From Antedon bifida (lineage: Eukaryota > Echinodermata > Crinoidea > Comatulida > Antedonidae), in NCBI GenBank assembly GCA_963402885.1, contig OY727096.1:31601820-31665819 (forward strand): a stretch of DNA of 64,000 nucleotides, given 5' to 3'. Below are positions 3,141 to 28,351 of the stretch, in pieces. Under the pieces are notes generated by a model. It was not told where the DNA came from, searched no databases, and was given only the letters and a program-made list of their open reading frames with translations. A program made the translations under genes and the position numbers. Each line of letters starts with the position of its first letter. Position 1 is the first letter of the stretch.

Positions 3141-6100
3141 ATGAGTATACGGAACCTTTACCGTTCTATAAAACCACAAGTAACAGTGGACGATTCCCTT
3201 GACGATGACAACAAGATAGCCATAGTAGGAATTGGATGCAGGTACGGCGATGGAGTCGCAGGCCCACGTCAGATGTGGGAAATGCTCATGGAGGAACGGG
3301 ATTGTACTGGTCCACCGCCTCCTCAACGTTTTGATAAATCTACATATTTTTTCCCCGGTGAAAAGCAAAAGGGAAAACTGTATACAAAAGCAGGAGGATA
3401 CTTGGAACAGAATCCTATGATGTTTGACCGACAGTTCTTTAAGATGTCTCCAGGTAAATTCATTTTAATCATATACAGGTATAAATGAATTTGCTTGCGT
3501 AGAAGTAACACAAGCTGCAGCAACAAGTATTATACAGTTGAAACAATAATGTTTGTTGAAAATTATCTTACATCGATCGTAGGCAATAGCATAGTAATAT
3601 TACGACTTAAATTTATTACAGAAAATATATTGCTCTATTATGTTAGATTTGGAAAAAAAATCTGATCTGATATTTAATTTACATGTGAATGCAATGCGAT
3701 ACATAGAATCATTCTAAAGAAACACGATACGAAACGAAACTGTATTCTTAATTCTTTTTCTTAATATCTATATAAAATTAGTACCCAGATTCCAAAAAGA
3801 TATACTGACTTAAAATGACAATCTTTCACACCCAAATGTTTATAGAAGAATTATTTAATTTTTTTAGAAGAGGCCGAGCATATGGATCCACAAATTCGAA
3901 TTCTTCTTGAGGTTGTATGGGAATCGATTGAAGATGCTGGTATTTCGGCATCATCACTCCGAGGCTCAAACACCGGTGTGTATATGGGAGTAACAGCCAA
4001 TGAGTATCTCCATCTTACTGCATTTCCTCAAAGCAACATTGGTCAATATACAAATTCAGGAACCAACTCTTGCATGATCTCAAATCGAATTTCGTACGAG
4101 TTTGATTTAAGAGGGCCAAGTTTTTCCATCGACACAGCATGTTCGTCATCTCTCTATGCCGTGAAAGTTGCTTGTGATGCCCTTAAAGAAGGGGTCTGTG
4201 ACACAGCGATTGCCGGTGGAGTCAATATCATTCTTTTACCATTGGTTACAATTGGATTTTGTCAAGCTGGTATGCTCTCTCCCGATGGACAATGCAGAAG
4301 TTTTGATGAATCCGCTAATGGTTACAGTAGAAGTGAAGGGGTGGGATCGGTAATACTCAAGCCACTCAAACGTGCCGTAGAAGATGGAGATCGAATTTAT
4401 GCAGTGATACGAGGAGGAGCTCTTACAAATGATGGACGAACTCCAGGTATTGCAAACCCAAGTTTTGATGCCCAGATTGATCTTGTGTATAGAGCTTGTA
4501 CAGCTGCAAAAGTCGACCCATGTGATATTGCTTATATCGAAGCACATGGAACTGGTACTAAGGTAGGCGACAAAACAGAAGCGAATGCTATTGGTGAAGC
4601 CATGAGTAAAAAACGTTCAGATGACATGCCACCTTTGTATATCGGTTCCATAAAATCAAATGTAGGACACGCAGAAGGTGCTGCTGGAATAGCAGGTGTT
4701 ATCAAGACAGCATTGTCATTATATCATCGAGAAATTCCGGGTGTTGTGCATTTCAAACGCGGTAATCCTAACATCAATTTCAAGGATCTGAAACTGAAAG
4801 TTCCACCAACAAGCATTCCCTGGCCGGCTGGTTCAAAATTTCTCGCAGGTTGCAGCTCGTTTGGATTCGGTGGGGCTAACGCACATGTCGTTTTTGAAGC
4901 CGCACCATTAAAACCATTTAACAGTTTACCAAACAGAATTGATAACATGAATGGTAATGACGGTGAATACCACACGTTATTATTATCGGCATCTTCGAAA
5001 GAAGCGCTTGATGAGAGATGTTCCAACTGGGTGGATTTTCTTGTGGAAGACCTTGAAATGAGATCTGATGCATTCATAAATGCACTTTATACAGCAAATG
5101 TACGATCCCATCGTCATTCAGACAGGTTGGCATTGCTGGCAAAATCTAGAAATGAGTTGGTAAAACTTCTTCGTGATAGAGTGAAAGGAAATTCAAACTC
5201 TAATATGACGTTTGAAGGAAAGGCACCAGAGGGAAATACATTCATCAGAATAGTGTTTGTCTTTTCTGGTATGGGCACTCAATGGTGGGGCATGGCTAGG
5301 CAGTTAATGAACACTCAGCTTATATTCAACAGTGTTATAAACGTAAGTATATGGTTCCATCCATCCATCCACTTTCTCTTCTTACGAACTACCTGAATAA
5401 TAGAACGCAATTTACTTCCTATAACTCCCACTTTTCTGAACTTCTTCCTGTTACATGCGGCGTTCCTCAAGGATCCATTCTGGGCCCCCTTCTCTTCTTA
5501 ATCTATGTTAATGACTTAATTCATGCTTCAAACTCTTTTTCATATGTTCAATTTGCTGATGATACCAATATCTTCCTTTCCCATCCTGATTTCAACACTC
5601 TTACAAGAACCTTCAACAATGAAATCAGCAATGTTTCAAACTGGTTCAAACTAAATAAGTTATCCCTTAACATCAGTAAAACAAACTACATTTACTTCTC
5701 CACTAACAAAAAAACTAATAACAATCCGAATGCAAATATATACATCGATCACACCCCTATCAAACAAGTTGAAAGCACATCATTTCTTGGTGTTCAAATA
5801 GACAACAAATTAAACTGGAAGCTTCATATAGCTAAAATCTCCAATAATATCTCCAAAACCATTGGTGTACTAAATAAACTGAAATCTACATTACCTCCTA
5901 AAATCATCACTTCTTTGTACAACACACTCATCTTGCCTCACCTCTTCTATTGTAACACTGTCTGGGCAGCAACAGATTCAAAGCATCAAACTCTTTGTCC
6001 ATGGCTTAGTACTGAAACAACTAAACTTGACAGACTATTCAAACTCCAAAAGAAGGCAGTCCGTATATGTACCCAATCAAATTATCTCTCTCATACTAAA

Positions 6101-9100
6101 CCACTTTTCCATGATCTAAACACCCTAAATATCTTTGACATAAACAAATTACAGACAGCCCTTTTCATGTATCGACTTTCCAATAACACACTTCCTAATA
6201 CCTTAAAAAGATTTTTTCAAAAAAATAACGAGCTTCACAAATATAATACCCGAAATTCAAACAAATACGTCCAATCTAACCTAAATCGAAACTCTTCCCG
6301 AAATTCAATTATCCACACAGGCCCCTTACTATGGAACTCCCTTAACAAGTCTTTATTTGATTATAGTTTCATCATATTTAAATCAAAATACAAAAAATAC
6401 CTAATATCAAAATACAAACCAACTTAATATTTCACCCAAATTTTGACCTATTTCAAACACCTCTTTTACCCTTATTTATTTATTTGTTTGTTTGTTTGTC
6501 TTGTCTTCGTCCATACTTTGTCTCTTGCGTAGTGTATGTACTGTCTGTAACCCCTGTTTGTCTCTGTCTATGAACATTGATCCAAATTTTTTTATACAAC
6601 TTTTTTCCTGGTGGAACCTGTCTTAAAGCTCTTTGAGCTTATTTGTGTTTTCTCCAGATACAATGCATTTATATTAACTTGATTCATATTTTGTCAACAT
6701 ATTTTGAAATTTGCTTTGTATAAATAAAATGAATGAATGAATGAATGAATTTTGATGTAAAACTTCCTACCTTAGTAAAGAGACTGTCACTAAAAAACCT
6801 TAACGTACATCTTCTCTCGTAACAAATTGTATGTTTTTTATAAATACATTTACACTTTTACTGGTTACCGTACAATCCATTCAGGCTGTTAATTTATATT
6901 TGTTAGTTAATTTTTTGATATAAGAAACGTTTAGTTGATGTCCATGTAGAATTTAGGGATAAATCACGAGTGATAGTATAGATGTCCGTTTAAAATTGAT
7001 GATTTGTTAAAATATTTAGTCAAAATGATCAAAATTCCCAAAACAAATATATTGAATATAAGAAATTTGTTATTTTTAATGTAGAAAATAGACGTAATAC
7101 TTGGTAAATACGGTGCAACATGGTCACTTGTACAAATGCTGTCAGAAGAAAAGGACAAAGACAGAATCAACAATACGGGTAAGTTACTTGTTTTAACGAT
7201 TACACAAAATCAACTTTTTCTTTTTAATGTTGTTTGTCTATTTGAAGTATACACATATAATGGCCGGTGGTTTGGGTTGAATGAGTATGGTGAAAAAATG
7301 ATGGGAATATGAACCTCTAGTTGACCCGAAATTACTCTAAACCTTAAAAGTTAAACAAGTTTTTTATTTCATTTAATTAATTCTGTTCGTTGATAATGAA
7401 AAAATAATAATTCTTTTTATTTAGTCTCTGATTAATTGTAATACACAATAGAAAAGACACAAAGAAGCAATAATGCAAATATTTATATTATTTTATGCTT
7501 TTGTTCCGTTTTATAACATCATTATTATTATTGTTAATTACATAAAAAATATTATATTTTCACAGAAATTTCCCAAACTTGCATTTGTAGCGTTCAGATC
7601 GGATTAGTCGAACTGTACAAGCATTATGGAGTAACTCCGAGTGCCATAATCGGTCATAGTGTGGGCGAAGTAGCAGCAGCATACGCAGCCGGACTCATAT
7701 CTATGTCAACTGCTGTTAGAATAATTTTTACAAGAGGTCATCTTCTTGTAAAAACTAGTGGGTCAGGAACAATGGCAGCAATTCTTCATGATGTTGATGA
7801 TATACAAGATCAACTAAAATCCACGGATTTGGACGTAGCTGCTCTTAATAGTCCTTCCCAGATAGTGGTTTCTGGTACAACACTATCTATTAACAAGCTC
7901 ACTTCAAAACTTAAACAAGATGGTATACAAGCAAGAGAACTAAAGGTAAATAACGCCTTCCACAGCCGTCAACAGGAAATTCTTAAAAAAGAATTCTTTA
8001 AAGAAACACGCTTTCTAAAGAAACGCAAGTCGTCGTCGTCTAACTGTCACAGACCTCTTTTCCCAATGATGTCAACCGTCACAAACCGGTATCTTACGCT
8101 GCAAGAAGCAAATAGCTCCGAGTACTGGTGGAATAATATTCGCCATAAAGTGAGATTCAAAGACGCAGTGGATGCTGTACTCAAGGATGGATACAACAGT
8201 TTTCTTGAAATAGGTGCCCATCCTGCATTGGCACCGGCAATTAAAGATACCATAGCTTCTACACCGAACAAACCAACTATTAACTTCATTACTCATTCTC
8301 TCAAAAGACCTCGTGATGTTAGTAACTCTGCCAACGATATTCTGAGTTTTAATATGTCAATAGCACAATTATTCGTAAGTGGCTACAAAGTCGATTTGTC
8401 ACCGTGTTTTCAAGGGTTTAAGGTCGAAGTAGAGTCTTTACCTCTGTATCCATGGCAACGAATTACATGTTCGGCAGCAACTGAAGCAGCTGATATAAAT
8501 ATGAGATATCCACATCATTGTCATCCTCTTTTAGGGGAGTCAGAATCATCCGCAAACTATCACGAAAACAAGAAACTTCGAGTTTGGAAATCAAACATTG
8601 GAACTCACAAAGAGCCGTGGATTGCCGATCATATTCTCCAAGGAAGTGTCGTACTTCCAGCTGCTGGCTTTATAGAGACAGCCATTGCTGCTCATCGTGA
8701 GTTGTTTACAGATTCTCGCCCAGTAGTGATGTCAGATCTTCGCTTTGACAGGTTTCTTTTTGTTTCTGAAGCTGACACAATACTAGAAACAACGACTGAG
8801 ATGGAATTGAATGGACAAGCAACATTCGCATTACGATCTTTCAACACAAAAGAAAACAAATGGATGACACATTCAACTATGCATCTAAAACAAGAAAAAC
8901 ACAATTCAGAAGAGAAACAATCGTTTCTTCCAATTTTTGAGATAAAGGGAAGGTGTCTTGGGGAATTGGACAAATCTGGTTTTTATGAGATTATGACAAA
9001 ACATGGCTTTAGTCTTGGTAACAGTTTCATGTGCATCGAAAAGGTAAAGTACAGTCGAACGGTTGATGAGGCACTTCTATATATTCACGCACCCGACACG

Positions 9101-12100
9101 GTTGTCGCACAGTCTTCTCGTTTCAACACGCATCCAGCCATCATTGATGGGATATTACAGGCCGTCGGTGGTCTTGTTGGCCTACAAGGAAAGGTATTAA
9201 ATCCAACAGAAAAACCTATTGTGCGTGCCCCAAGAGGTGTAAAACACGTCATCTTAAGCCACGTCACATTTCCAACTAATGTGGTTCTTCACTATAAGCT
9301 ATCGGATGCGTATAGTGATACACATGATCTTAAAATAAATATTTCCATAGCAGATGCAGAATCATATGCTGTACTTGGTAAATTTGAACAAATTAGTTTT
9401 GGCTCAGTTGCTGCCACAAACGAACAACAGAATCTGCGGCTCTGGGAAAAACATTGGATACAAGTATACCCTGGTGAATCATCTTATAATGAGAAAAGTC
9501 AGAATATCTTGATGGGAGACGATAGTGATCTTACTAAACACCTAAGTAAGTTGCTTAAACAAGAAGGAATATCGGCAATGACCATCGCCAAAGGTTCCGA
9601 TTTCAAGTCAGATACAGACGAACAGAAGAATATTATTTTGCTTTTTAAAGCTGGTGACAAAGACCTCACAACAATATCTAAGATAGATTTACTTAACCAA
9701 CAAGCACATATTGCAACATCATGCTTAGACCAATATAATAAATATTCTCGTAAGAAAGAACAAAGACCAAACATGTGGCTTGTAACACGTGATGCTTTTC
9801 CTGCAAACCACGACGATGTAGTTGATCCAACACAATCCTCTGCTTACGGATTTGCACTTTGTGTCATGCAAGAAGATCCTACTATGAAAGTATTCATTGT
9901 AGATCTACCTTCAAATCTTGATAATCAAGCTGCATCGAAATGGTTGACCGACTATATTTGGAAGACAGATCCATGTGACAACATAGTTGCTTTACGTAAG
10001 TCAAAATTAGACCGGCCATACGATGCGTTTTCACTTAGACTTGCTATAAGCAAACCTGATGAGTTCCCTTTAAAAGTAGCATCTTCTATTTGGAAATTCG
10101 ATATTGGGAAAAGTTTGCAGAATGGGAAAGTGTTTCTTACTAAAGACATACGCGATCACATTATAAACTGTGCAGATAATGTTGATATACATGTGGCGGC
10201 TTTCCATTTAATGACAACAAAGGAGAATAATACTTCTGACGAAGATAAAAGTGTTGCTTTTTTCTGTGGTCAATCTGATAAGAATACTTCATTTATTGGC
10301 TTCTGTGAAGAGGAGGAACTAAGATCAACAATAAGATGTCACCAAGATGACGTCGTTGAAGTGACGAGCAGCCTTAACGCAGACGAGATAGTCAATATCG
10401 TATCAAGATACATAATACCATTCGGTGTAATTCGTAACTTTAGACCCTGTAAAGAAAGCACAACAATAGTTTGTCTGTCTTCAAACAAGGACAAGATTGG
10501 GCTTTCAATGGCACATATTGCTGCAGAACTGAAACATAATGTTATTGTAGCTGTTAAAGATCTATCAGTAAACAACGGAGTTCATCTACATGGTGAACAT
10601 AGAGCAACTGTTTTAGACATTAAAGATGTCATGTCATCCTTAAACTCACAGAGCGTGGGTATCGTAGTTGGCTGTGAATCAGTAGTTACAGAATTGTTCC
10701 AGTTGTGTAATATGAACGACAAACTAAAACCCTTTTCTAAAATTTCTATTATTGACACCGACTCGTCTACTGTTACCAATTCTAAGCTTTGTGGTTTGCC
10801 CAAGCATGCAGTTGTTGAAAAGGTTTCCTACGCGTTTTCTTCAAAACTCGAACTTCAGAAAATGAAACCTGTCCTTGATGAGTTAGTTGGTTTATTTGAA
10901 AAACCTTCCTCTATGATCAATCAATTGAAAGAGGATGTGATTCCAAAAGTAATTCCACTGGAAAACATTGCAGTCATGAAAGATGTTTCATTTAGTAACG
11001 TTACGGTTGCTGTTGGAAATTCACCTGTCTCAACTTCATATGACTTTTTAAAAGGAGAAATTGTGTTCAAAAATGAAGAATCATATCTTGTGACTGGCGG
11101 TACTAAAGGCTTTGGATTGTGTCTAGTTGAATGGCTATCTGCCAAAGGAGCAGGTTGTGTGTATATCCTTAGTCGGTCAGAAGCGGATGCTGAAGAAAGA
11201 GAACGGTTAGATTATCTGAACAAGTCTGGGACGGCAATCGTTCATATTAAAACTGATATCTCAAGCAGCTCCGACGTAGAACTGGCTTTTAAACGGATTT
11301 CAAGTGATATGTCCTATCAACTTTCTGGAATTTTCCATTGCGCTGCACAGTATGATGATAGACTGTTAAATGATATCACACCTGAAGTATGGAAGAAAGT
11401 AATGGCTGCTAAATCATGGGGCGCTCTTCTGTTACATCAGATGTCCGTGAAGTTCAATACTGATTTGAAATATTTCGTTATGATTTCGTCTATTGTTCAA
11501 CTGATAGGAAATTCGGGTCAGGCAAGTTACTGTGCAGCCAACACCTTTCTATCTTCCCTCGGATATTTCCGTAGAAGTAAGTGTTTACCTGCAACAGTTT
11601 TTTGTCCTGGAGTAATCAAAAGCGATGGATATGCTGCAAGGGCGGGCCTCGTAGACTTCTGGGATAGAAGAGGTGTTGAAGCTTTGTCTCCAATGCACTT
11701 ACTAAACGGTCTGGGCATACTTCTAAGAAGCGGAGTTAAGGAAATGGGATTAAGTGGAAATTTTAGACAAAGAGATTTTATCAGAGAGAATAAAATATTT
11801 GCCAAAGAACACATTGCCATTCCCAGTGGTCGTTTTTCTATACTGAAAGAATTTGATATAGAAAATATAAAACTGCAAGTTGGAGACAGTGGACAAAATG
11901 ATATTACTCAATATCCTCCAGAAGTGGCCAAGTCATTTGTTCTAAATAAACTGTGTGGTTTTATCTCAGAACGTCTTGGTATAACGGGTGACATTTCACC
12001 AGATGTATCGCCATCCTCGATTGGTGTAGATTCTCTTATGACAACTGAATTCAGTGGGTTTATCCAAAGTACATTTGATGTATTTGTACCACCAATGGAG

Positions 12101-13012
12101 TTAATGAATGCTAATATTACATTACTAGCAATATCTGCTTCAATATACAAGAATGTATTAGCAGAAAAACAGATTGTAGACGATGGAAATAATGATGAAG
12201 AGGAAGATGACACATCATGGAAGGCCTGGTATGTTATGGATGAAAGAGTTACCCCTGATATTCAACTCATTTGTTTTCCACCGAATGGAGGTGGTCCGTC
12301 TACATACGCTTGGTGGCAAAACAACTTCGATAAATACAACGTTCAGGTAATTATGGCAAAACTTCCCGGATGGGAAGGGCGCCAACACGAGAAGCCACTT
12401 CAGACAATCGAAGAAATGATAAGTCACTTAACAGAAAATCTTGCTCCTAGGCTCATTTCCGGTAAATTTGTTTTATTTGGTCACAGTCTCGGTGGACTCC
12501 TTGCTTTCGAAGTTGCACATCGGTTGATGGAAAGAAACATCCGCCCGGCTCATTTAGTAATCAGCTCTTGGTATGCGCCTACACTAAACTACCCTAACGC
12601 GACAGAACTTGAAAATGCCCCTAAACTATTACGACAAATGGAACAAGATATCAAGAACAATATTCGAGTGGTGGACAACAAATCATTAAAGCTTTCGTTT
12701 GTTGATGATGATGTCTTGGGCAACAATGAATTGATGCGACGCCTCATTCCATGTTTCCATGTGGGCTTCAAGATTTGCCAAATGTACAGTAATACTCACA
12801 AGGAAAAACTTCCATGTGGCATGACGATAATTGGTGCAAAGTCGGATAGGTTTATTCCAATTTCCTCTTTGGACGCATGGTGTCTTGAAATTGAATCTAA
12901 TCAATCTTTTAAAAAGATAATCGTTCCTGGAGGTCATATGCATATTACATCAGCTAAAAAGAAATTCTTTAATGAAATGCAGAGTGTGTTAAAAGACGCA
13001 TTTGATTTTTAG
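3141..13012 (+). CDS. Animal type I iterative polyketide synthase, copy A (KS-AT-DH-psiKR-ER-like-KR-ACP-TE)
   Basis: Four coding exons, 3141-3453, 3868-5342, 7085-7178 and 7566-13012, join in frame (phases 1, 0, 1) to give 2442 aa. An in-frame stop at 3129-3131 fixes the start. Domains by approximate residue: KS 22-450 with DTACSSS (Cys196), EAHGTGT (His331) and NVGHAEG (His372); AT 565-870 with GHSVGE (Ser659) and NAFHS, the form typical of malonyl-CoA selection; DH 945-1165 with H-x3-G-x4-P (His983) and HPAIIDG (Asp1155); a structural pseudo-KR about 1250-1450; a degenerate ER-like segment about 1465-1690; KR 1800-2020 with TGGTKGFG and SYCAAN (Tyr1949); ACP with GVDSL (Ser2117); TE 2195-2442 with GHSLGG (Ser2268), Asp2388 and GGHMHIT (His2418). 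It should extend malonyl units iteratively with ketoreduction and dehydration, then release the chain through the TE. A mammalian-type FAS is less likely, because FAS needs a working ER. The product is unknown. Confidence 0.93.
5352..6752 (+). mobile_element. 5'-truncated non-LTR retrotransposon (L2/CR1-like LINE) in PKS-A intron 2
   Basis: An open frame of about 350 codons ending at 6427 encodes the C-terminal half of a LINE reverse transcriptase: GVPQGSILGPLLF, FADDTN (catalytic DD), LSLNISKTNYI and LGVQID, then the LWNSLN segment common near the end of jockey/CR1/L2 ORF2 proteins. The 3' UTR runs to an aataaaatgaatgaatgaat tail (tandem gaat, about 6725-6750), a tail style seen in L2-like elements. 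The endonuclease and N-terminal RT parts are absent, as after abortive reverse transcription. It lies in the same orientation as the host gene, starting about 10-30 nt past the donor. The RT frame is intact to its stop, so the insertion is probably fairly young. No clear target duplication was found. Confidence 0.85.
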
Positions 13013-14350
13013 AATTCTCCAAATTCCTTCCAACGTACAAACAGTTTAAATACAAAAGTAAGACTTTAAGTACTACCATTCAGTTTATAGTTAACAGCAC
13101 ACTTTTGTATTGATATCATATTTTTAAATCGTTTGAATAAGGTACAGATTATGGTGTCCGTTTACTATTATTTTGTTCTTACTAAACTTTAATAAATAAG
13201 TTAAATAACTATAAAATATATTGTATAAATTATAGGTATATTTGGAGGGAAACGGTTGAGGTATAGACTCATAATACTTTGTAGATTAGACTTTATTTAG
13301 CTCAAATAAAACTTTAATAAATAAGTTAAATAACTATAAAATATATTGTATAAATTATAGGTATATTTGGAGGGAAACGGTTGAGGTATAGACTCATAAT
13401 ACTTTGTAGATTAGACTTTATTTAGCTCAAATAAAACAAGAAATATGAACAATGATTTTATTGATGTTTAAATATACAATGTGCCAACAAAATAGAAAAA
13501 TAGACAGGAATTATCATTATCTAGAAGTTACTATATGATTTCTATTGGTATTCTGGAAATTATAATGTAATTGTAACAGTAATAAATAATAGTATAAATC
13601 AACATGGCTTACATTTTATAGCTGTTAATTTTGTGGAAAGACAAACAAATTTTAGTTTTAGTTATTCGGAATTGATTAAATTAAAACCATCATTGAAGAT
13701 ATGGGTTGGGTATTCCATGTTGGTGAAGTTTGTTTTTTCTCTGATGTGGTAAACAATCATTTAATTTCTGACAATCGTGTAATTTCAAAATAAGATGCAA
13801 TCAATCACTATATTGTTTAATGAACATTTAAAAAAAATATTTTAAATATATATGGTATGAAATGATATTTTTAAAAATATTGATTAAAATATATACATAA
13901 TAATTAATGTTATATATAAGATTATATGCTTACCATTGTCATGACATCCAATTTAGCAGAGTTGTAGTTTTAGAATTCTGACGTTGACTTTAATTGACTC
14001 ACACGAATACACGTTTTCTATTACATTTTTAACTTGACTGGTGATAATGTTGCTATGTATGTACATATTTTATGCCTTGTATTGTAAAGAATAAAACCAG
14101 TTTTAAATTTAAATTGTTTTTTTTTATTTCTCAGCTGTAAAGCAATTAGCAATCCACATCTTTAAGTCTGTGTCAAGACAATTGATTGGCATTGCATTTA
14201 AATAGTGACGGCGTCAAACATTTTGTGTATTGTGACGTAGGTGATGCATCTATGGAGTGTATTCATGCGATCCGTACACCACCACCGTGTCTCTCAAAGC
14301 CAATGTTGTTCTAAAGCAGTATAAAGCAAATAAATAAGGCATACATTAAA
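13013..14350. other. Intergenic DNA downstream of PKS-A, no gene seen
   Basis: This holds the PKS-A 3' flank with several AATAAA-type signals (for example about 13189 and 13304), the 125-bp duplication listed separately, and AT-rich sequence. I see no credible coding region. Confidence 0.6.
13184..13433 (+). repeat. Perfect tandem duplication, 125-bp unit x2
   Basis: The unit starting aaactttaataaataag at 13184-13308 is repeated base for base, as far as I can read, at 13309-13433. It lies about 170 nt past the PKS-A stop and contains AATAAA hexamers, so both copies could offer poly(A) signals. Lack of divergence means a recent duplication or an assembly artefact. Confidence 0.9.
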
Positions 14351-14353
14351 CTG

Positions 14354-14866
14354 AATTACCATAGCAAAGACAGTAATTTTTAAACAGTCTAAAACAGTAT
14401 AACAAAATAACCATATCAAGGTATTAAAGCAAATAAAGCTAAACATTCACAAAATAGCCATAGCAAACAAATCAGTTTCAAGAGCTAAACAAACAGCCAT
14501 AGCGAAATCAGTCTAAAGCCAACAACAAAAAATCACCAAGTGAATTCAATCAACAAAACATAATGTGTCTATGCTTCGTTTCTTAACGGGAAGACGTAGG
14601 CCTACCTATGGATGGTTCGAACCAGGTTTCAGTCAACATTATATCTATCAGTACTTGAACATCCTGAACGTTATTGGCAATACTAAAATATTACGGGCGT
14701 TGAACATAGAACTTGTGTATTATACTGTGCTGTTAACCAAAGGTACGTGTACGTTAACCAAGAATTCCTTGATTTTCGGGTTAAGAAAGCCCGATCGGGC
14801 CACTATCTAACGGCCGCCACTTAATTATGTGACTGCCAGCCATTACAAGTTCTTATTATAAAGCCA
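14354..14866 (+). repeat. Left arm of a ~0.5-kb inverted repeat
   Basis: Outer end ttaccatagcaaagacag, inner end near agccattacaagttctta. It matches the reverse complement of 17441-17942 along its whole length with many substitutions and small gaps (roughly 70-80% identity by eye). No coding content. It is either one end of a foldback-type element of about 3.6 kb or one of two copies of a repeat inserted head to head. Confidence 0.7.
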
Positions 14867-14869: not shown

Positions 14870-17370
14870 CCCACGGCCATACTCAAGCATAACCAAGCCC
14901 TACCAGTAATTGTTGCAATTATACTTTTAGAGAGATTTTTTGTCAAAAATTGAAAATCTATGTTTCAATAATGGCGTCAACATTGTATTTTTAAAAATGT
15001 ATTTTCATATGTGAACGAAAACATACTTGTTGACGCAATACAGACATTATTGACGCATTGTCGATGCAGAGTGAGCAACCCACACGCGAAGGACACGCGT
15101 CATGCGTCAATCTAAACCGTAATTTTTACGCGACTAACGATTTCAGTGTGAACATCAAATCGAATGTGACGTGTTACTAGCGTCAGTCGATTTTCAACAT
15201 CAACGCGGTGAATTAATTTATAACTGCCGAGACTAAATAATTATTGTTTTAACGTACTGACTCGGCATGGTATTTGAATATCCGACCACTGCTGCGGTAC
15301 AAAACAGGAGTTTGTGTAGTTGATACGCTTGTCACTAAAATTCACGCACGTATCATTCAGCGGTTTCGAAGGAAATACGTCAAATTACGCGACCAATTTG
15401 GTAGCATTAATAACTACGTTGAGACCATCTTCTTCTTTGGCCTACTATATGTTTTATTATTTTTGAAAAAGCAGTGTGATTAATAATCGTAAATTCTATT
15501 CCTAAAATCTAACAATTACACAGGAAAATTGGTGAAAAAGTAATCGTCGAAAGTACGTCACCGACCATAATAATATGTTAAGCCCGTTATTGTGATGAAA
15601 TAAGGGTAGCCTATTAGAGCGGACGTGTGGATTTACCGACAATGAAGTAATCTAGGCTACTTTTCTTATAATAAAACTAAACAGTTACCAATGAAAGTGA
15701 CTTGACACTATGATTGTCTTTAGTTAATGCAAGATTGTCAAGTATTGTAAGATTGCCAAGGCCGATCAAGAAAATGTAAATAAAAGGTATTAAATTTATG
15801 CTACCGACTTACGTGACAATAAATAGGCCTAATGACAATAGAAAGGAATGCCATGCCCACCAACAACAAAAAACAACAACAAAAGCACCTTGAAATTGAA
15901 AAGATTATTGTTTTTATAATAAGTGATTTTTAATTGTAATTTTGTTTTAATTTTTTGATTGTATGTTCTACATTTCTGAATGTCTTTTATATTTGTATAT
16001 TGCATTTTATTTTTCTGAGTGAAACGCTTTTGTTAAACTTCAATCTTTCGTTTGATTGCAATAAAGTTTTATTCGTATTCGTATTCGTATTGCACAGCAA
16101 AAATAATTTAAAACTTGTTTTTGTTGAATATGACAACAGGTTTGGATGGATCTAAATAATTAATTTTATTATATAACGGGTTTCTGGTTAAATTTTGTTA
16201 GTGAATACAATAAAAATTGTGCTATTAAAAGTTCTATTTATTCATCATCTTTTTCAAGTTTTACAAATCAGATTAAATTAAATCAAATAAATAAACATCT
16301 GTGAACGTTTTTGAAGGAAAATTGGGCTATTATTGGTCAAAAAAGCACTCTAATACCATTCTGGGCTTTGAAGCATAACATACTGTGAGTCACAAGAGGC
16401 AAATTAGCCTATGTAATATATACCCTCACATAATAAGTTTCAAGTAGCATATAACCAAAAGCTGGCAGTAGCATTTTTTATATTTTGTTTAATATGTGTA
16501 AAATACATTTCAAAATAAATGTAGTAAAAAACATATTCCACATTTGACCCAAATTTTCAACTTTCTTACGATACGATAGTATTTATTGTCATTTTTAACT
16601 AGGTAAAAATGAAATGAATTTGGTTGGTTGGTTTACATTTGATTTACATACAAAATACAAATATAATGCACACAGACATTCATATCCAGTCTCTATGCAA
16701 TTAACAGTAAAACGAAAAAAAAAAAAATAAATAAAATTAATGTGACAAAGAAATTGAGCAAATGAACAGTATTGTTAGTTAAGAAAGAAATATATGAAAA
16801 AGTATATAAACAAGGCCTTATACATGACTGCAGTCGCGTGCTCAAATTTGAGTTAGTGTTTACCGACCGACCGATAGTGAGCTGTAGAGTCGCGTTGCAC
16901 GCGACTAAAAACCGAATTAGCTTGTGCTAGAGGTGCCAGTAAAATAAATTTAAAACAGAAAGAAAACAAAAACCTGTACAGGGTAAATACAGGTACACTA
17001 TATACCTAGAAATCACGTAGGCCTACGCTTAAATGCTAATAATTATGTTTATATTTTAACTAGTTCGCGTTCGGGTGTGGTACTGGTATTTGTTGATGAA
17101 TGTGAGTGATTGGTTTCTTTCTTTTTTATTTCCCAAATTCCCTAAGTGTTTTAATATTCAATACAGTGATCAAACAACAATAGTACCTTTAACACCATGA
17201 GTGAGGTCAGACATTTTATTGATTTTCTTTTCTTATTTGTGACGTGTTTGTTGACCCTCTATTCAGTGTTTTGTATTCTCTAATTGCTCACGTCATGGTT
17301 GTCTATGACATCATCTCAAACTTTAAGGCTGCAAATTGAATAAAAGTAACTTATCGTTAAGTTTGTATGG
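14870..17370. other. DNA between inverted-repeat arms, no gene seen
   Basis: Apart from a possible LINE tail near 15930-16100 and a GC-richer stretch with acgcg motifs at 15030-15230, nothing is recognisable. No open frame here resembles a transposase. Confidence 0.5.
15925..16100 (+). repeat. Possible LINE 3' tail with attcgt repeats
   Basis: A T-rich stretch leads to gcaataaagttttattcgta, followed by three or four attcgt-type repeats (16065-16092), the usual look of a non-LTR retrotransposon 3' end. No coding part is seen. Confidence 0.35.
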
Positions 17371-17411: not shown

Positions 17412-17440
17412 GTAAGTCCGTAACTTAAACACTAGGATAA

Positions 17441-17942
17441 GGCTTTATAAGAACATGTAATGGCTGGTGGTCACATAATTAATACAAGTATAAGTGGCAG
17501 TCGTTAGATAAACAATTAGCGACTACCAGATGACGGTTCTCAAAAATTAGTGGTCCTGGTATTAACGCATAAATGAAGGAATTTTTGGTTCACGTACCTT
17601 ACGTAACAGCACAGTATAGTAACCAACTACACAAGTGCTATTTTCAACGCCCGTAGTATTTTAGTATTTTCAATAACATTCAGAACGTTCATGTAGGCCT
17701 ACGGATAAAATAATGTTGACTGAAACATGGTTGGAACCTTGGAACTTTGTTGATTGAATTCACTTGGTGATTTTTCGTTGTTGGCTTTAGACTGATTTCG
17801 CTATGGCTGTTTGTTTAGCTCTTGAAACTGATTTGTTTTGTGAAAGTTTAGCTTATTTGCTTTAATACTTTTTATATGATTATTTTCTGATTTTACAATG
17901 CTTTAGACTGTTTTAAAATTACTGTCTTTGCTATGGTAATTT
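17441..17942 (-). repeat. Right arm of the ~0.5-kb inverted repeat
   Basis: Reverse-complement partner of 14354-14866: ctttgctatggtaat at its outer end mirrors the left arm's start. It begins 30 nt after the candidate PKS-B leader exon. No coding content. Confidence 0.7.
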
Positions 17943-18104: not shown

Positions 18105-21100
18105 ATGAGCCAACAAAATATACACCGTTCGGCCATCAGCGGTGACTCTTTAAGCGATGATGATAAGATTGCTATTGTAGGAATTGGGTGTAGGTACGGC
18201 GATGGTGTGGCAGGTCCACGAGAAATGTGGAGTATGTTGAAGGAGATGAGAGACTGCACAACATCTCATCCGGCAGAGCGATTTGACAAATCATCTTTCT
18301 TTTATCCTGGTGAAAAGAAGAAAGGTAAATTGTACACCAAACGTGGTGGTTACCTTAAGCAAGATCCGTTTAAGTTTGACCGACAATTCTTCAAAATGTC
18401 ACCAAGTAAGTAATAATATTTCGAATATATTTACAGTACTTGACGAGCATATAATTGGTATCCACTTATCCAATTATTTTCTGTTTTAATGTTTTTGTGT
18501 AGAGCTATAGTTTGTTATTTATTATACTGTTCTTTGAACCGGTTCTATTTCATGTTATGTTTGCATGTACACTTTTTAATATTTAATGTGAATCTGATAA
18601 ATAGACTAATGTTGAAAATTAAACATTCTTTGTTTTATTTTCTCAAAATTTAAGTGAAAGTTTAATTTTTTAAATTTCATTTTGTTTTTTCTTATAAAAA
18701 GTAGAAATAGTATAGATATTTGTTTATAAATAATTATATCAATACTGATTTTACCTGTAGTTGATATGAAATAAAAATGGACTTCCCCAAAAACTAAAAC
18801 TAAGGCACTTGTGTTTCGAGAAAACTGGCTTTTGAAATTGTCAGATTTTTACTTTGCTTATTTTATGAAACATTACCCCAGTAATTTTTTTATCAACCAC
18901 GTATGGAAACATACTCCCATAATACAGCTAGTAATCAGCGCAAGAAGTGTCTTGATCTACACCTGGGTGGAGAGAGGCAAACATAAGTACATACAAGCAA
19001 TGCGGCGAGAGTTGGATTCGAACCCCGATCTCACGATCAGTAGTCCAACGTCCAACACACTGCGCCACACGCCCTCACTAGTAAAGCCTTTAGGGCCTAG
19101 CTCTTCTTTTTCTTGAAGACCTATAAATAATGTTTAGGCTAAATAAAACCGTAGAGCAACCACTAATATATCACTGCGGTCACGGTGCTAAAATCTCTGA
19201 AATATTTAGGCTGAACCCTTTGAGCAACCATTTGTTTACCCACTGAGCCTTACTAAAATCTATCACAAACTTTCTTAAAGTTACATTTAAGTATGACGTA
19301 GCAGAGTTAAGTACATTCTCATGAATTGTATTTAACTTAATTTGAGCTTTGAGCATTTAATAGTCTTAATTTAATAGTCCTAGCTATCTTTCCCCACCCC
19401 CTAAACATATCTGGTTGCAGCTTATGGCAATATAATCTCATTCTGTATTTATTCTATCATATGCTTAGTGTAACCTGAATTGTTCTTTTAACCCGGACTA
19501 CTATATCTTTCTTATTCATTTGCTTGATATTTTAATCCAGTGGCTATGACCTTAAATTTGCTTATTTTGAGCTATTCTGCACTTCCATTGTACTCTTTTC
19601 CTAATATGTATCACGCATGGTACAACAATAACAATGACTTAAAATTTATATTAGAAAATCACTAAATCTCTAAATAATTAACAAATCCCAAAAGTAACTG
19701 ACTAATCGTTATGGAAATGTTCTCTTCTCGAAAACAGAGACTCCCATATAATGTAATACATTTTTGTTCCGGTCTCTGTTTTCTAGATTTCTCGAAAACA
19801 GGTCCCGGGTCTGTGGTCTCTATTTTCGAGGTCCCGGGTCTGTGGTCTCTATTTTCGAGGTACCGGGGGTGTGGTCTCTATTTTCGAGGTCTCTGTAGCT
19901 GTATAGGACGACCCTTTTAATGAGACCGCAGAAATAGGCCTACTAATAACACAAGTTTCAGTATTCTCAGTGGCCAGGTTGATTTATATTTAGTGTTAGG
20001 AAGGGTAATGCTGCTAGATTATGTTTGTCATTATTATTTATTTTATTCTATTTCAACCATATTTAATGAGGGTGATCCATCCAGCAATTGCTGATCATTT
20101 GGGACCCGCAGAACAGATACAATACACAATAACAGTAAAGTTAAAGAAAAACAAAAGCCTATAAATAAAATAACTTAAATGAGAATTAAAAATCTGAAAG
20201 AAAATTTGGATTATAGTAAATAACTGATATGTTAAATTAAGCAAAAATAATATATATATATACTTAGATCTAATATTTTACAATTTAAAGTCTGGAAAAG
20301 GATTACATAGTTTGGAGAAAAGTCATAAGTCTAGTTTTGAATGAGGAAAAGGATAATTAATTATTTATTCGTCTCATCCGATACATCGAACTTCAAAGAA
20401 AATTTAAAACTTGAAAGCAAACAAACTATTTTAGGGCTCTGTTATGAATATAATTTTCGTATCAAATATCAACTTAAATGACCGTGAATTTACAAAGTAA
20501 TTTTGGGAACTCGTCCGGTAATGTCCGGTTAAAATGTATTTTAAACCCTTCTCATCAATTTTTTTTATACCTATTACCCCCAAAACTCTAGAATAAATGT
20601 CTCTACCACATGACCTACATCTTATTGAAAGTCAATAATTTTTATATTTTTTTAGTTGAAGCTGAGCATATGGATCCACAAATTCGAATTCTTCTTGAGG
20701 TTGTTTGGGAATCGATTGAAGATGCTGGTATTCCTGCTTCGACATTTCGAGGCTCTAACACTGGTGTGTATATGGGAGTAACGGCTAATGAGTATTTTGC
20801 TCTTACTGGCTTACCATTGAGCAACATCAGTCAATACACAAATTCAGGAACCAACTCTTGCATGATCTCAAATCGTATTTCGTACGAGTTTGATTTAAGA
20901 GGGCCAAGTTTTTCCATCGACACAGCATGTTCGTCATCTCTCTATGCTGTACAACTGGCCTGTGATGCTCTCAGAACAGGTGTCTGCAGCACAGCGATTG
21001 CCGGGGGAGTTAATATCATACTTACACCATCTGTTACAATTGGGTTTTGTCAAGCTGGTATGCTGTCTCCTGATGGTCAGTGTAAAAGTTTCGACGAGTC

Positions 21101-24100
21101 AGCTGATGGTTACAGTCGAAGTGAAGGTGTGGGATCAGTAATCCTTAAACCACTCAAAACAGCAATAGCAGATAGAGATCGAATTTATGCAGTGATACGA
21201 GGAGGAGCTCTTACAAATGATGGACGAACTCCAGGTATTGCAAACCCAAGTTTTGATGCCCAGATTGATCTTGTGTATAGAGCTTGTACAGCTGCAAAAG
21301 TCGACCCATGTGATATTGCTTATATCGAAGCACATGGAACTGGTACTAAGGTAGGCGACAAAACAGAAGCGAATGCTATTGGTGAAGTCATGAGTAAAAA
21401 ACGTTCAAACGATATGCCACCTCTGTATATCGGTTCCATAAAGTCAAACGTAGGACATGCAGAGGGTGCTGCTGGAATAGCAGGTGTTATCAAGACAGCA
21501 TTGTCATTATATTTTCGAGAAATTCCGGGTGTTGTGCATTTCAATTGCGGTAATCCTAATATTAATTTTGAAGATCTGAATTTAAGAGTTCCTTCAACAA
21601 GCATTCCTTGGCCTTCTGGATCGAATCTTCTTGCAGGGTGCAGCTCATTTGGCTTCGGTGGTGCTAACGCACATGTTGTGTTTGAGGCCGCACCGTCAGA
21701 CCAACACTACAATAAGCAAACTGATTCATTGGAATCATACAACCTGTTAATGATTTCGGCTAATTCACCCAAAGCTCTTGAACAAAGATATGTTGACTGG
21801 ACAAAGTTTCTGTCATTTGATTTTAATGATAGTGCTTTTAAAAATGTGTTATACACTGCAAGTTTAAGGAGCCACAATCATGCAGAGAGAGCAGTTGTTT
21901 TAGCTAAGTCTAGAAATGAATTTCTCAGTATACTGCAACAGAAAGTGCAAGGAAGCAGAGTAGATACTGTAATTGAAGGCAAGGTACAAGAAGGTAATTC
22001 TGTCATCAGAACTGTTTTTGTTTTCTCTGGAATGGGTACTCAGTGGTGGGGCATGGCAAGAGACTTGATGAATACACAGCCTATCTTCTTTAAAGTCATG
22101 CAGGTATTATTACTATTATTATTATTCTGTAGGATTCGATTTAGTAAAGGTCTATATCTAAAGAATCTCAACAAAAAGTTTGGGTCTTTAGTTTTCGTTT
22201 GGTCTACTAAGTAGGGTTAGAGCGGTTTGTATGTTGGTTGGCCGGAGAATTGATACGTTTTGCAAATACAGAAACATTTTAAACTATATTTTATAACACT
22301 TTACCTTAACATATAAGCCGATTCTAATACTTTAAGTGGCCCGCTATAAATATCAGAATTCGTTTCATATTGCTTCGATACGAAGACTTACGTTACCTTT
22401 ACCACTAGGCCTACGAACTAAGCCTAGCCAAGCTAGGCATAAGACCGTCTACTTAAATAGTGCATTGTTTTTCTCATTTTATCATATTTAACTTTGAACG
22501 TATATTTAAGACCAGGAATGACCTGGTTTAATGCTTTTAAAGTTATATGCATTATTTTTACCAAACGTGAATATTTGCAGGCAAGTGTCTAAATTTATTA
22601 CGATACATTTCTTTGTTTAATTCTTAGTTGATAGACGGTTATCTTTGGAAATGTGGAGGAAGATGGTCACTTATTCAGATGTTGTCAGAGGAAAATGACC
22701 AAAACAGAATAAACAGCAACACAGGTTAGATAACCTTTATTAATCATTTATTTATTCATTTCAACTTTATTTAGAGAGACATAATATTACCTCTCGTTTC
22801 ACGTGAAACTGTCCCCTTAAAAAGCGTCTCAAAGGAGGAATTCTACTGTATCAATTTTTAGGTGCCTTACAAACGCAATATTATTTTCTTTGACAGAAAT
22901 TTCTCAAGTCTGTATTTGTAGCGTTCAGATAGGATTAGTCGAACTGTACAAGCATTATGGAGTAACTCCGAGTGCCATAATCGGTCATAGTGTGGGCGAA
23001 GTAGCAGCAGCATACGCAGCCGGACTTATCACTATTGAAACGGCAGTTAAAATAATATTTAAACGAGGACGTCTTCTCAGAAAAACAAGTGGTTCAGGAA
23101 CGATGGTAGCAGTTCTTCATGATGTGGAAGTTGTTAAAAACAAGATGAAAACGACTACCGATATCACATATCTAGACATAGCCGCAATCAACAGCCCTAC
23201 ACAAATCGTGCTGTCAGGAAAAACCGAGTTAATCAATGATTTTTCATCCCGATTGAAGGAAGATGGTATACAGACAAAATTACTCAAGGTTAATAATGCA
23301 TTTCATAGTCGTCAACAAGAAGTTCTTAAGAAAGAATTTTTCAAGAAGACGAGTTTTCTTACAAAGAAAAAGTCTTTAGGTAAGCTGACCAGGCCGTTAA
23401 TTCCAATGCTGTCGACTGTTACTAATCGGTATCTAACGCTACAAGAGGCTAATACTCCAGATTACTGGTGGGGTAATATTCGCCGACAGGTGAGGTTTAA
23501 AGATGCAGTAAATACTATACTTAAAGACGGATATAATAGCTTTGTTGAAATAGGCGCCCACCCTGCATTGTCACCAGCAATTAAGGACATCATAGCTTCT
23601 ACGCCGGGTGAGCCAACTATTCACTTCGTAACGCATTCCCTTAAAAGACCACGTGATGTAAGCACTACTACCAATGATTCTCTAAATTTTAACATCTCGT
23701 TAGCAGAAATGTTTGTAAGTGGTTACCCAGTCGATATGACCCCAAAGTTTCAAGATTTTTACTATGAAGTAGAATCTCTACCTTTGTACCCATGGCAACG
23801 AATTGAGTGTTCAGCAGCTACTCCATCAAGGAACGAAGTGATGCGGTATCCAAATGCTTTTCATCCTCTTTTAGGAAAACCAGATACCTCAGCAAACTTT
23901 TCCAAAAACGGGGTTCAGGTTTGGAAAGCAAGCATTGGATCAAACGAGGAACCATGGATTGCCGATCACGTTGTTCAGGGTAGTGTAGTTTTTCCTGCTG
24001 CTGGATTTATAGAGACGGCATTTGCGGCACATCATAGTCTGTTTTCTAAATCCCATCACGTAATTATAAAAGACGTCCGTTTTGACCGTTTTATGTTTGT

Positions 24101-27100
24101 TTCTGATAAGAGCACGGATATAGAAACAACAACCGAAATGACTTCTCGTGATACAGCAGCTTTCCGATTTTGTTCACTCAACAACAAAACAGAAAATAAC
24201 TGGACCAAGCATACGGAAATGACATTAATTAATAACGGTTACCAAAACGACCCAAGACAAATTTACACCTACTAACTGAGCAGTCCCTCCATGTAACTGA
24301 CATTAAAGAGAGATGCCTATTTGAACTCGACAAATCTGCCTTTTATGTCTTCAAACATCAAGTAGGATTCAATCTTGGTAAAACTTTTATGTGCGTTGAA
24401 AAGGTAAATCATAATAAAACGGCTGGCGAGGCACTTATATATCTCCGAGCTCCTGAAACTGTAGCTGCACAGTCCAGCAGGTTCTACGTCCATCCCGCAT
24501 TCCTCGATGGTATATTGCAAGGCATGGCGGGACTTGAGCGACTGCGGGGTAAGATTTTAAATCCCACCATGAAGCCTCAAGGTCGTGTTCCAAGATCAAT
24601 AGAAAAGCTTTGCTTTAAAAAATGTACGTTTCCAGAAAATGTTTATCTTCATTTCATGATAAGTGACGACGGAGATGATGTGTATTCAGACGTGACTGTT
24701 GCGAATGCAGACACCTTTGAAGTCATTGGTAAATGTTCCAAAATTCGATTTGGATCTGTTAATGGGCGTGAATCTAACACAATGAAGCTGTGGACGAAGA
24801 AATGGGTACCTATAGATGTGGAAAAGCAATCATTCGATACAGATGGCTTTGTATTGATAGCAGGGAATGACTCGGAATTTTCTTTACAGATTCAGAACAC
24901 ATTAAATTCAGTTGGATTTCGCTCGCAAGTGTACACTGGAGAAGATGTACAGGCAGACCAGTTACGTAATGAAGAGATGTTGAATTTTATAATCACAATT
25001 AAACCCGGAAACTGCGAGAGCCTTCGTCAAATATCCAGAGATACTTTTTTGGAGCAGCAATCCGACATTGCAGAGATGTGCATCAATTATTTCAAAGTTA
25101 TATCTAACTTGAAAAACGTGAGTACAAAAGTATGGCTCATTACAAGAGATGGATTTAGTGTCACACAAGATGACATAGTTGATCCATATCAGGCATCTGC
25201 TTACGGTTTTGGAATTTGTGCAATTCAAGAACATTTGGATTTTGACCTATCTATCTTAGACATTTCATCGGATGTCACCAGTACAACTGCGTCGGATTGG
25301 TTAATGAAGTACATTTGGGGAAGTGATAACTATGAACAAATCATTGCATTACGAGCCAAACCAACTCATTTCAACGCATATGCGTTTCGTCTATGTATTT
25401 CTGATAGTTATACTTTTTCTCACACAAAGTCTACAGATGTGTGGAAGTTTAACGTGCCCGAAAGCCTTCAATCAGGAAGATTGTCATTGACAAAATACAG
25501 TGAAAAGAAAAGAGAAGATACCAAATGTTCTGAATTGATAACTGTACATGTTGAGTCTTTCCGACTACTTCAATCTGAAACTCGTAGTTCTAAAGACGTA
25601 CAAACCGCTGTGCTGTTTTGTGGAAATTCAAAGCAATCGTCTGTTGTCATTGGTGTTTGTCCATCAAGTGAAATGACACCGACATTGCAATGCAGTGCAA
25701 ATGAACTAGTTGAGCTTGACACCAACTTTCCGCCTGCACAAGTAATTAATATTGTCTCATCCTATTTTATTCCATATATCACGATTTGTGAAATGAAACC
25801 AAATGGTACGACTGTTGTTTGCTTGAGTTCTATCGAAGACAAGCAATGTTTAGCCGTTGCACACATGGCTGTAGAGCTAGGTCACAGTACTGTGGTTATC
25901 AATAAACACACACCAGAAGGATATGCAAATAATAATAATAACACTAATAATAATTTGCTAAGATTTGTTGAAGATGAAGATGCAATGGTTGTTTTGAATA
26001 CACATAGTGTTGGCTGTGTAATTGGACGAAAAACGTACGTAAGTGAACTATTACAACGCGATGGAGGAATTAAAGAGAGATTGACACCATTTGCTACAAT
26101 TGAAATGCTAAAATCGAAAGAAGATGATTCATCTACAGGAAACCTCGGTCTTCCAGTAAATGTAAGAGTTGTACTTACCAGCTACGAATTACCAATGCTT
26201 GGTGAATTTCACCAAGTGGAGCCTCACTTAAATAAGTTAATGAATATTTGTGAGAAGCCATCCGCCATGCACTTTTTACAACAAGTCAGTTCACGAATTA
26301 TCCCGTTAAATGAATGGAAAAGACATGCTAATTTTTCTTTTGATGAAGTTATCTTTTCTGTTGATACCAATGAATCTGTTCCTGTGAATTATGATTTTTC
26401 TGGCAATGAGACTAAATTTAGTATGAACAATTCGTATATTGTAACTGGAGGCACGACAGGATTAGGCATTTGTCTTGTAGAATGGTTGGTGGATAATGGA
26501 GCTGGAAATGTTTTCATCTTCAGTAGGTCTTCACCAGATTCCGAAACTGAGAAGAAGTTGGCAAGTTTAAGAAGTCATGGATCGACAATAACACAAATCA
26601 AGACAGACATCACACAAAGAGCAGACGTTGAACATGCATTTGAAACTATTTTGAAAGATTCGTCGAAGCCGCTAACAGGAATATTTCATTGTGCTGCGCA
26701 GTATGATGATAGACTGATTGCAAATATGACATCAGAGAGTTGGAAGAACGTAATGGCTGTAAAATCATGGGGTGCTCTTCTTCTGCATCAGATATCAATC
26801 ACAAGTAATGTCCAACTAAAATACTTTGTAATGGTATCTTCTGTGGTTCAAATGGCAGGAAATATTGGTCAGGCAAGTTATTGTTCAGCCAATACGTATC
26901 TTTCTTCTCTTGGCCATTATCGTAGAAGTCAAGGTTTACCTGCAACCGTCATATGCCCAGGAGTGATTGGAGACACTGGTTTTGCAGCACGAGAAGGTCT
27001 GATCGAACATTGGGAAAGAAAGGGAATGGAAAGTTTGACGGCCAAGGATGTAATACATGGACTTGACGTAATGCTTAGTAGTTTTGTATCTGAAATCGGT

Positions 27101-28351
27101 ATAAGTGGGAATATTCAAGTTAATGATTTCATCACAGAGTACAGAGGTATTATGAAAGAACACACCAATGAAGAAGTAGGATCAATTACAATGGGATTCT
27201 CTTCTGAAAGATCAATGAGTTCACTGGGATGTGATCTACATAATACAAATCCAGATGAAACTAAGCTGTTCATCCTTCAGAAGCTCTGTTCTTTTATCTC
27301 AAATCGCATTGGCCTAACAGGTGATATTTCACCGAATTCTTCAGCATCTTCCCTTGGAGTTGATTCTTTGATAGCAACTGAGTTGAGCGGGGATATTCAG
27401 AGAACGTTTTTTATTCCATTTCCTTCAATGGAATTGATAGATGAAAACATGACAATTCAAGACTTGACAATATCCGTCTATAAAAAGATATTAGACAAAA
27501 ATAGACCTGAAGGCAAAGAAAGCAATGAACAAGAACAAGAAGAGGATACCTCCTGGAAGTTGTGGTATCTAATGGATGAAACAGTTACTTCTCCAAAAAT
27601 CCAGCTGATTTGTTTTCCGCCTAATGGAGGAGGCCCATCTGTATATGCATCGTGGCAAGGACAATTAAGTAAATATAATGTGCAGTTGATCATGGCAAAA
27701 CTGCCCGGATGGGAAGGACGTCATACTGAGAGACCCCTCCAAAATCTTGAAGACATCGTGCGTAAGTTAACTGAGAACCTAGTGCCACGGCTTTTACCAG
27801 GTAGATTCGTATTGTTTGGACATAGTATTGGTGGACTCATTGCGTTTGAGGTTGCCCATCTTCTACAAGATAAGGGTTTGTATCCTGCTCACGTGATCGT
27901 CAGTTCCTGGTATGCACCCACACTTGACTATCCCAATACAATAGAACTTTCAAAGGGCCCACTGTTATTAAAGCAAATTGAACAGAACATCAAAAATAAC
28001 ATTCCAATAAGCAACGAGCAATCACAAAAGCTTTCGTTTGTTGATGATGCTGTTTTGCACAATACTGAGTTAATGAAACGTCTTATTCCTTGCTTTTATG
28101 TTGGCTTTAAAATTTGCCAACATTACAGAAACATTCACAAGACAAAACTTCAATGTGGTATGACCATATTTGGTGCCAAGTTAGATCGTTTTATTCCGCT
28201 TAGCTCATTGGACGATTGGTCTCAAGAAATTGATCCCAATCATCGTTTCAAAAAGGTCATAGTGCAAGGCGGTCACATGCACATTACGTCAGAAAAAAAG
28301 AAGTTTATCCGCGAACTTCAAACAACAATTGCAGATGCATTTGTTTCTTAA
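18105..28351 (+). CDS. Animal type I iterative polyketide synthase, copy B (tandem paralogue with a frame break)
   Basis: Exons 18105-18405, 20656-22103, 22628-22724 and 22897-28351 match PKS-A in position and phase (1, 0, 1). An in-frame stop at 18093-18095 fixes the start. Motifs in order: KS DTACSSS (Cys192), EAHGTGT, NVGHAEG; AT GHSVGE (Ser647) and NAFHS; DH DHVVQGSVVFP and HPAFLDG; degenerate ER-like segment; KR TGGTTGLG and SYCSAN; ACP GVDSL; TE GHSIGG, AKLDRF and GGHMHIT. Spliced length is 7301 nt, one short of a multiple of three. The first frame runs into a stop at 24273-24275 inside the DH, while homology resumes in another frame (TEQSLHVTDIKERC, from about 24276) and stays open for more than 1300 codons. 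This is either a recent one-base loss or a base-calling error; all catalytic motifs remain. Expected length without it is about 2433 aa. Confidence 0.9.
18950..19085 (-). repeat. tRNA-derived SINE head in PKS-B intron 1
   Basis: On the minus strand, gtgtggcgcagtgtgttgg (A-box-like) and ggggttcgaatcc (B-box) are spaced as in a tRNA gene, followed by unrelated tail sequence. The arms do not fold into a full clean cloverleaf by eye, so this is a SINE or tRNA pseudogene rather than a tRNA gene. Confidence 0.6.
19801..19886 (+). repeat. 29-bp minisatellite, 3 copies
   Basis: The unit ggtcccgggtctgtggtctc plus tattttcga occurs at 19801, 19830 and 19859, with the third copy slightly changed. It lies in PKS-B intron 1. 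Partial related pieces (tctcgaaaacag, ggtctctgttttc) lie just upstream. Confidence 0.85.
20040..20140 (-). repeat. SINE 3' tail in PKS-B intron 1
   Basis: The reverse complement reads atgatcagcaattgctggat then ggatcaccctcattaaatat, the same tail as the SINE at 55030-55230. The head is missing or unrecognisable, so this is a truncated copy. Confidence 0.65.
22335..22582 (+). repeat. Dispersed intronic repeat, copy 1 (PKS-B intron 2)
   Basis: Contains gcccgctataaatatcag, aggcataagaccgtc, tttctcattttatcata and ggaatgacctggtttaatg in the same order as copies at 30242-30330, 32570-32965 and 54378-54800. Non-coding and of unknown class; see findings. Confidence 0.6.

Follow-up and report, generated by a model that had tools for sequence, protein, structure and literature searches.

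What does a crinoid make with a tandem pair of giant polyketide synthase (PKS) genes, and is the product a pigment? The question is raised by a 64,000-nucleotide stretch of the Antedon bifida genome (contig OY727096.1, positions 31,601,820 to 31,665,819), hereafter the window, which is 64 kb of the contig labelled C9 in our analysis of the 315.6 Mb genome in 27 contigs. An initial annotation, made from the letters of the window, had placed two giant PKS genes head to tail at 3141–28351, and both the coordinates and the order hold. The two type I genes lie on the forward strand at 3141–13012 (gene 1, with its ATG at 3141) and 18105–28351 (gene 2, with its last stop at 28351). We read the locus as two thioesterase (TE)-ending animal type I PKSs of the sea-urchin Pks2 class, in which gene 1 would be an iterative maker of polyene acids, and we give this reading a probability of roughly 0.68. 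A role of the product in skeleton-forming cells is less certain.

Domain architecture and likeness to Pks2

Pfam returned the same order of domains in both genes, namely ketosynthase (KS), acyltransferase (AT), dehydratase (DH), ketoreductase (KR), acyl carrier protein (ACP) and TE. The full order that can be read in both is KS-AT-DH-pseudoKR-pseudoER-KR-ACP-TE, where ER is enoyl reductase, and a methyltransferase (MT) is absent. Catalytic motifs of the KS, AT, DH, KR, ACP and TE were found in both genes with motif patterns, as the initial annotation had described; the TE His of gene 2 was seen in the translation within QGGHM, which falls outside the pattern used. In gene 1 the DH lies at 8522–9397 (right edge approximate), with His983 in HxxxGxxxxP and Asp1155, and is followed by the pseudo-KR and pseudo-ER (9434–11080), the KR (11081–11605), in which the K/S/Y/N set is in place (YCAAN), the ACP (11948–12139; GVDS), and the TE (12263–13009), whose Ser, Asp and His stand in GHSLGG, GAKSD and PGGHM.

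The pair belongs to a larger family. A KS search of the genome gave 24 places, from which the TE-type family was grouped by hand into eight loci and one fragment (C9:10184106). Besides the window pair, the loci are copies A (10.26M), C (10.24M), B (10.21M) and D (10.16M) on contig C9, and one copy each on contigs C15 and C10. The catalytic Tyr of the KR is kept, within YC[AS]AN, in all seven copies checked.

The previously proposed domain order stands except in its ER-like part, which by its motifs is a dead pseudo-ER. No ER family from Pfam was matched between the DH and KR of the window genes, whereas the ERs of a second PKS pair in this genome, on contig C8, do match. Alignment of the gene 1 stretch 9434–11080 with two ER-bearing bacterial PKSs showed that the GGVG motif, and with it the NADPH motif, is missing together with about 27 residues of a shortened substrate domain; the C10 copy has an equal loss of the ER motif, as judged by eye. 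In a profile comparison the ER-like stretch aligned collinearly, if weakly, with the C8 ERs (E 0.0022, probability 12.9). A low-confidence predicted fold of the gene 1 stretch (pLDDT 51) best matched the DH-ER-KR regions of PKSs, although its input alignment included two bacterial sequences whose ERs are genuine and so biased it that way, and prediction from the single sequence (pLDDT 34) was useless. Because the ER is without its NADPH motif, the chain would be expected to stay unsaturated. A KR and DH with a dead ER fit an unsaturated chain, in agreement with the double bonds foreseen earlier, and NAFHS with GHSVGE fits the choice of malonyl-CoA by the AT.

Sea-urchin Pks2 (SpPks2, NP_001239013.1, and HpPks2, AB923907) is described as KS-AT-DH-KR-ACP-TE, with an ER added in the Discussion of the paper (PMC4604110). 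The window genes share with it the arrangement KS-AT-DH-(ER)-KR-ACP without MT, the C-terminal TE and an echinoderm source. Pks2 is expressed in skeleton-forming cells and is needed for larval spicules (PMC4604110), and pks2 transcripts are found in sea-urchin primary mesenchyme cells (PMC10172037); its chemical product is not stated in the covered portions of the Pks2 literature. In the budgerigar enzyme MuPKS an inactive ER leads to polyunsaturated chains (PMC6334511). MuPKS and the other vertebrate PKSs OlPKS and ApPKS resemble the window genes in having KS-AT-DH-KR-ACP (PMC6334511; PMC4604110) and differ from them in the absence of a TE.

In the mechanism that we propose, the product of gene 1 would act alone and iteratively. 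Its AT would load malonyl-CoA and its KS extend the chain, each beta-keto group would be reduced by the KR and dehydrated by the DH with no enoyl reduction, and the TE would set this unsaturated chain, a polyene, free as an acid. On the analogy with Pks2 alone, and with less confidence, the product may act in skeleton-forming cells in the deposition of calcium carbonate, and not as a pigment.

Polyketide synthases and not fatty acid synthases

KS trees put the window genes outside the fatty acid synthases (FAS), so that the outcome named in the initial annotation as refuting its reading, both genes within metazoan FAS, did not occur. In KS trees of 34 and 23 rows, the window clade (genes 1 and 2, B and C10) received support of 100/100, and a separate 100/100 clade joins human FAS to this genome's own FAS. 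Of 26 loci, all but the partial L048 and L049 were translated for the first tree; one of these 24, L045, was removed because it has an internal stop, which left 23; for the second, the 11 bacterial rows scoring lowest against gene 1 were removed. Copies A, C, C15 and D were left out of both trees.

Against CurL the KS of gene 1 scored 388 bits, and against the best-scoring FAS 285; exon 2 alone scored 381 bits to CurL, 282 to FAS and 248 to EcPKS2. The window genes have neither the trait of the animal FAS-like PKSs (AFPKs), a KS nearer FAS than PKS, nor those of animal FAS, a KS inside the FAS clade and a working ER. A TE search at E 0.001 matched six places in the genome, all at loci of this family (every locus but B and D) and none at the FAS gene, so the window TE is unlike that of the genome's own FAS. 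Few introns, all of them N-terminal, have been reported for mollusc PKSs and not for FAS or AFPKs (PMC10764717), and the window genes resemble the mollusc PKSs in this respect. Animal FAS and the AFPKs EcPKS1/2 share an overall domain logic with the window genes, and EcPKS1/2 share an inactive ER as well (PMC7280274). They differ from the window genes, whose KS lies nearer bacterial PKSs than FAS or EcPKS2, whose introns are fewer and whose TE is not recognisably a FAS TE. That the window genes are animal PKSs, not FAS, is supported by these sequence comparisons.

The nearest bacterial KS found (26 loci) is 48% identical. We make no claim of a horizontal origin from bacteria, the deep KS branches being unsettled. 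Kinship with the trans-AT KS 7zma looked close at 527 bits but was rejected, since two KS domains, each scoring about 300 bits, are summed in that figure.

Several points weigh against placing the locus in the Pks2 class. Kinship with Pks2 would be one of architecture alone, and PMC4604110 lists TE-ending PKSs for coral and lancelet as well. Table 2 of that paper marks the DH of SpPks2 as missing an active-site residue, a mark that the covered portions do not treat as a defining trait; the window DH has both its His and its Asp. Approximately unbiased (AU) tests did not reject the window clade as sister to FAS (p 0.149), its grouping with the C8 pair (0.115) or a grouping of all three (0.379), and because none of the three was rejected the deep placement of the window KS is unsettled. 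Palindromic Alx1-type sites (TAATNNNATTA) number 7 in the window against 7.67 expected. Three of the seven fall in the 2.1 kb upstream of gene 1, and directly upstream of gene 2 there is only one, at 16161; with no excess over chance in the window, the sites were set aside as evidence for a skeletal role.

Selection, gene conversion and the frame break in gene 2

The ratio of nonsynonymous to synonymous change (dN/dS) between gene 1 and gene 2 is 0.26 overall, 0.12 in the TE and 0.14 in the KS, and by these values purifying selection is acting between them. Synonymous change amounts to 1.25 per site overall. Over exon 4, identity is 52.0% between gene 1 and gene 2 but 66.8% between gene 2 and A and 65.7% between gene 2 and C15; by this measure, the two genes are old, non-sister paralogs and not the outcome of a recent duplication.

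Within the KS, however diverged the pair, one 213 bp tract is identical between gene 1 (4387–4599, which holds KS His331) and gene 2 (21175–21387). Across this tract both genes are only 80–90% identical to A, B, C and C15. The run spans 51 variable sites and was matched by none of 5000 shuffles (15 pairs tested); six other pairs had shorter or weaker runs, reached by 33 to 122 of 5000 shuffles. On this comparison the tract is the mark of gene conversion between gene 1 and gene 2. A second identical run, of 95 bp, covers the active-site Ser of the AT (7601–7695 in gene 1 and 22932–23026 in gene 2), and is the weaker evidence for conversion because in the first 30 codons of that exon four paralogs match gene 1 at 86–89% identity.

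The initial annotation had taken the pair for a working biosynthetic locus. This stands for gene 1, whose model is a single uninterrupted reading of 2442 amino acids, and not for gene 2, which is not translatable throughout. The frame that encodes the AT and early DH of gene 2 stops at 24275, and the frame of the remainder opens at 24236, so that the two overlap at 24236–24275 in the DH linker, with the change of frame inside the overlap. Paralogs A, B and C15 read straight across the linker at this point. We searched for a mini-intron among GT/GC-AG pairs with donors at 24040–24275 and acceptors up to 24420. Several pairs restore the frame, the mildest being a 71 bp GT-AG candidate at 24238–24308, which was rejected as it would cut out residues conserved in the paralogs; a 46 bp candidate (24238–24283) does not restore the frame. 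The second frame of gene 2 retains residues common to A, B and C15 (LTEQSLHVTDIKERC), and because the 71 bp intron would remove part of them, a frame shift is the likelier explanation of the break. It may be a real lesion or an assembly error, and gene 2 may now be inactive. On the Pks2 reading, gene 2 would be an older, diverged copy whose KS shares sequence with that of gene 1 through conversion.

Family expansion and alternative readings

With at least eight TE-type loci, Antedon departs from the usual one to three pks genes per animal genome, the lancelet having 13 (PMC4604110). A tentative and rather doubtful extension of the Pks2 reading is that a Pks2-like family expanded in the crinoid lineage, with conversion keeping the condensing domains similar as the reducing and release parts diverged, which would yield a small set of related enzymes whose varied unsaturated products have uses beyond the skeleton.

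The same expansion could instead point to a separate lineage of TE-ending PKSs, for example an older animal class common to coral or lancelet, and with its own product and role, such as defence lipids or membrane polyenes. The growth of the family to eight loci and a fragment, the divergence of the pseudo-KR and pseudo-ER (34.5% identity between gene 1 and gene 2) and the long stem branch of the window clade in the KS tree (0.8) all suit this explanation. We regard it as rather unlikely, given that two echinoderm genes, pks-1 and pks-2, have been described (PMC4604110) and that the Pks1-like and TE-ending clades of this genome map onto them one to one. No study of a crinoid Pks2 appeared among the titles and abstract beginnings of the matches listed in the open-licence literature.

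The locus might also be decaying, with most paralogs and gene 2 reduced to pseudogenes and gene 1 a survivor with little role left. A lesion or the loss of the TE affects five of the eight family loci: besides gene 2, copy C has one base missing that breaks the KS frame, C15 has a stop in the KS, B has no TE within the 10 kb read, and D has changes at the KS Cys and the AT His and a frame that ends after the AT. Decay is nevertheless an improbable account, as gene 1 is open across its 2442 codons, dN/dS is well under 1 in each of seven domain regions, and the single-base lesions could be assembly errors. Copies A and C10 are likewise open in the exons read (all but exon 3 of each).

The link to pigments made in the initial annotation is not supported. 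Crinoids have polyketide pigments, and a crinoid PKS yields a 14-carbon precursor (PMC11414698). The pigment enzymes SpPks1 and CrPKS have a pseudo-MT and an ER, no TE, a dead KR, and GMMD or GLMD in the KS, and GLMD was found in 17 of 18 crinoid genomes (PMC11414698). They are like the window genes in being echinoderm iterative type I PKSs with KS, AT, DH, KR and ACP, and unlike them in their MT and ER, in a KR that lacks its Tyr, in the G[L/M]MD of the KS and in the missing TE. The window genes show none of these traits; at the position of GLMD or GMMD their KS reads GVYMGVTANEY (by eye). The statement in the same paper that echinoderm PKSs lack a TE fits the SpPks1 homologs and not Pks2 (PMC11414698).

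The crinoid GLMD motif, which supports the crinoid origin of the DNA, is carried elsewhere in this genome, in the KS of both genes of the C8 tandem pair (7217331–7224185 and 7246189–7253136; L009–L012). A single frame of about 2300 codons makes up most of each, with KS, AT, DH, MT, ER and KR by Pfam plus an ACP motif, and a TE search of the pair gave no match. The C8 pair is like CrPKS and SpPks1 in domain order and GLMD, a likeness of architecture and motif, and unlike them in that its KRs keep the Tyr (QPMYITAN and QSMYIAAN) that the published KRs lack. Because it has an MT and ER, no TE and GLMD in the KS, it suits the pigment slot and is probably the pigment-type PKS of this genome, fitting better than the window genes. 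The Pks2 reading of the window genes gains support from this, as the Pks1-type slot is already taken. Aromatic products require unreduced chains, and with a KR that keeps its motifs, a TE, no MT and a better-suited pair on C8, it is very unlikely that the window pair makes precursors for crinoid polyketide pigments.

Gene structure and neighbourhood

The identical intron positions and phases noted earlier were confirmed, both genes having three coding introns of phases 1, 0 and 1. Exon 1 of gene 1 (3141–3453) holds the start codon and the N-terminal part of the KS and ends in a phase 1 donor. Exon 2 (3868–5342, phase 0 end) holds the remaining KS (Cys196, His331 and His372), the KS-AT linker and the start of the AT, exon 3 (7085–7178, phase 1 end) a part of the AT, and exon 4 (7566–13012), of about 1815 codons, the remaining AT and all domains from the DH to the TE and stop. 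In gene 2, exon 1 (18105–18405) has a phase 1 donor, exon 2 (20656–22103, phase 0) covers the KS and the start of the AT, exon 3 (22628–22724) ends in phase 1, and exon 4 (22897–28351) contains the AT and first half of the DH in one frame and the second half of the DH, pseudo-KR, pseudo-ER, KR, ACP and TE in the other. The donor and acceptor of intron 1 and the donor of intron 2 are at the same place in all seven copies compared (genes 1 and 2, A, B, C, C15 and C10), as is the acceptor of exon 4 in eight of eight, D included; exon 3 was located by motif in four (genes 1 and 2, C and C15). Just before each start codon, near 3124 and 18085, a splice-acceptor-like TTTTTCAG/TTTTAG can be seen by eye, which suggests an intron in the 5′ untranslated region common to both genes.

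Intron 2 of gene 1 contains a reverse-transcriptase (RVT_1) remnant on the forward strand at 5375–5800 (Pfam E 2.7e-14), within a frame at 5300–6427. A frame resembling, by eye, the end of a similar element lies on the reverse strand of L052 (6548–7009), close to the decayed copy D. A 125 bp unit is repeated in tandem in two copies with 100% matches at 13184–13437, just downstream of gene 1. Between the PKS genes there are two inverted-repeat pairs (14465–14719 and 17628–17838), which may be a foldback or mobile element; their arms, 93 nt long in one pair (99% complementary) and 68 nt in the other (87%), are separated by about 3 kb.

The start of a gene for CAP (adenylyl cyclase-associated protein) follows straight after the pair at 30507–32562 (CAP_N by Pfam, exons by eye). 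At 43279–44247, 15 kb downstream of the pair, is a 322-amino-acid frame with a fatty acid hydroxylase domain (PF04116). This domain was found at eight places in the genome, none of them beside another PKS locus, and with the CAP gene intervening a biosynthetic cluster with the hydroxylase was rejected. A 23 bp unit occurs 16 times (98% matches) at 36620–36993. An Rfam scan of the window found nothing at the gathering score.

Implications

The locus is ordinary in kind, and the expansion of its family is the interesting part. The comparison with the C8 pair cautions against giving every echinoderm PKS a role in pigmentation. Gene 1, which is intact, TE-ending and mostly one exon, is a good candidate for expression and analysis of its product. 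Crinoids branch outside the other living echinoderms, and a crinoid TE-ending PKS could help to tell whether the skeletal role is ancestral.

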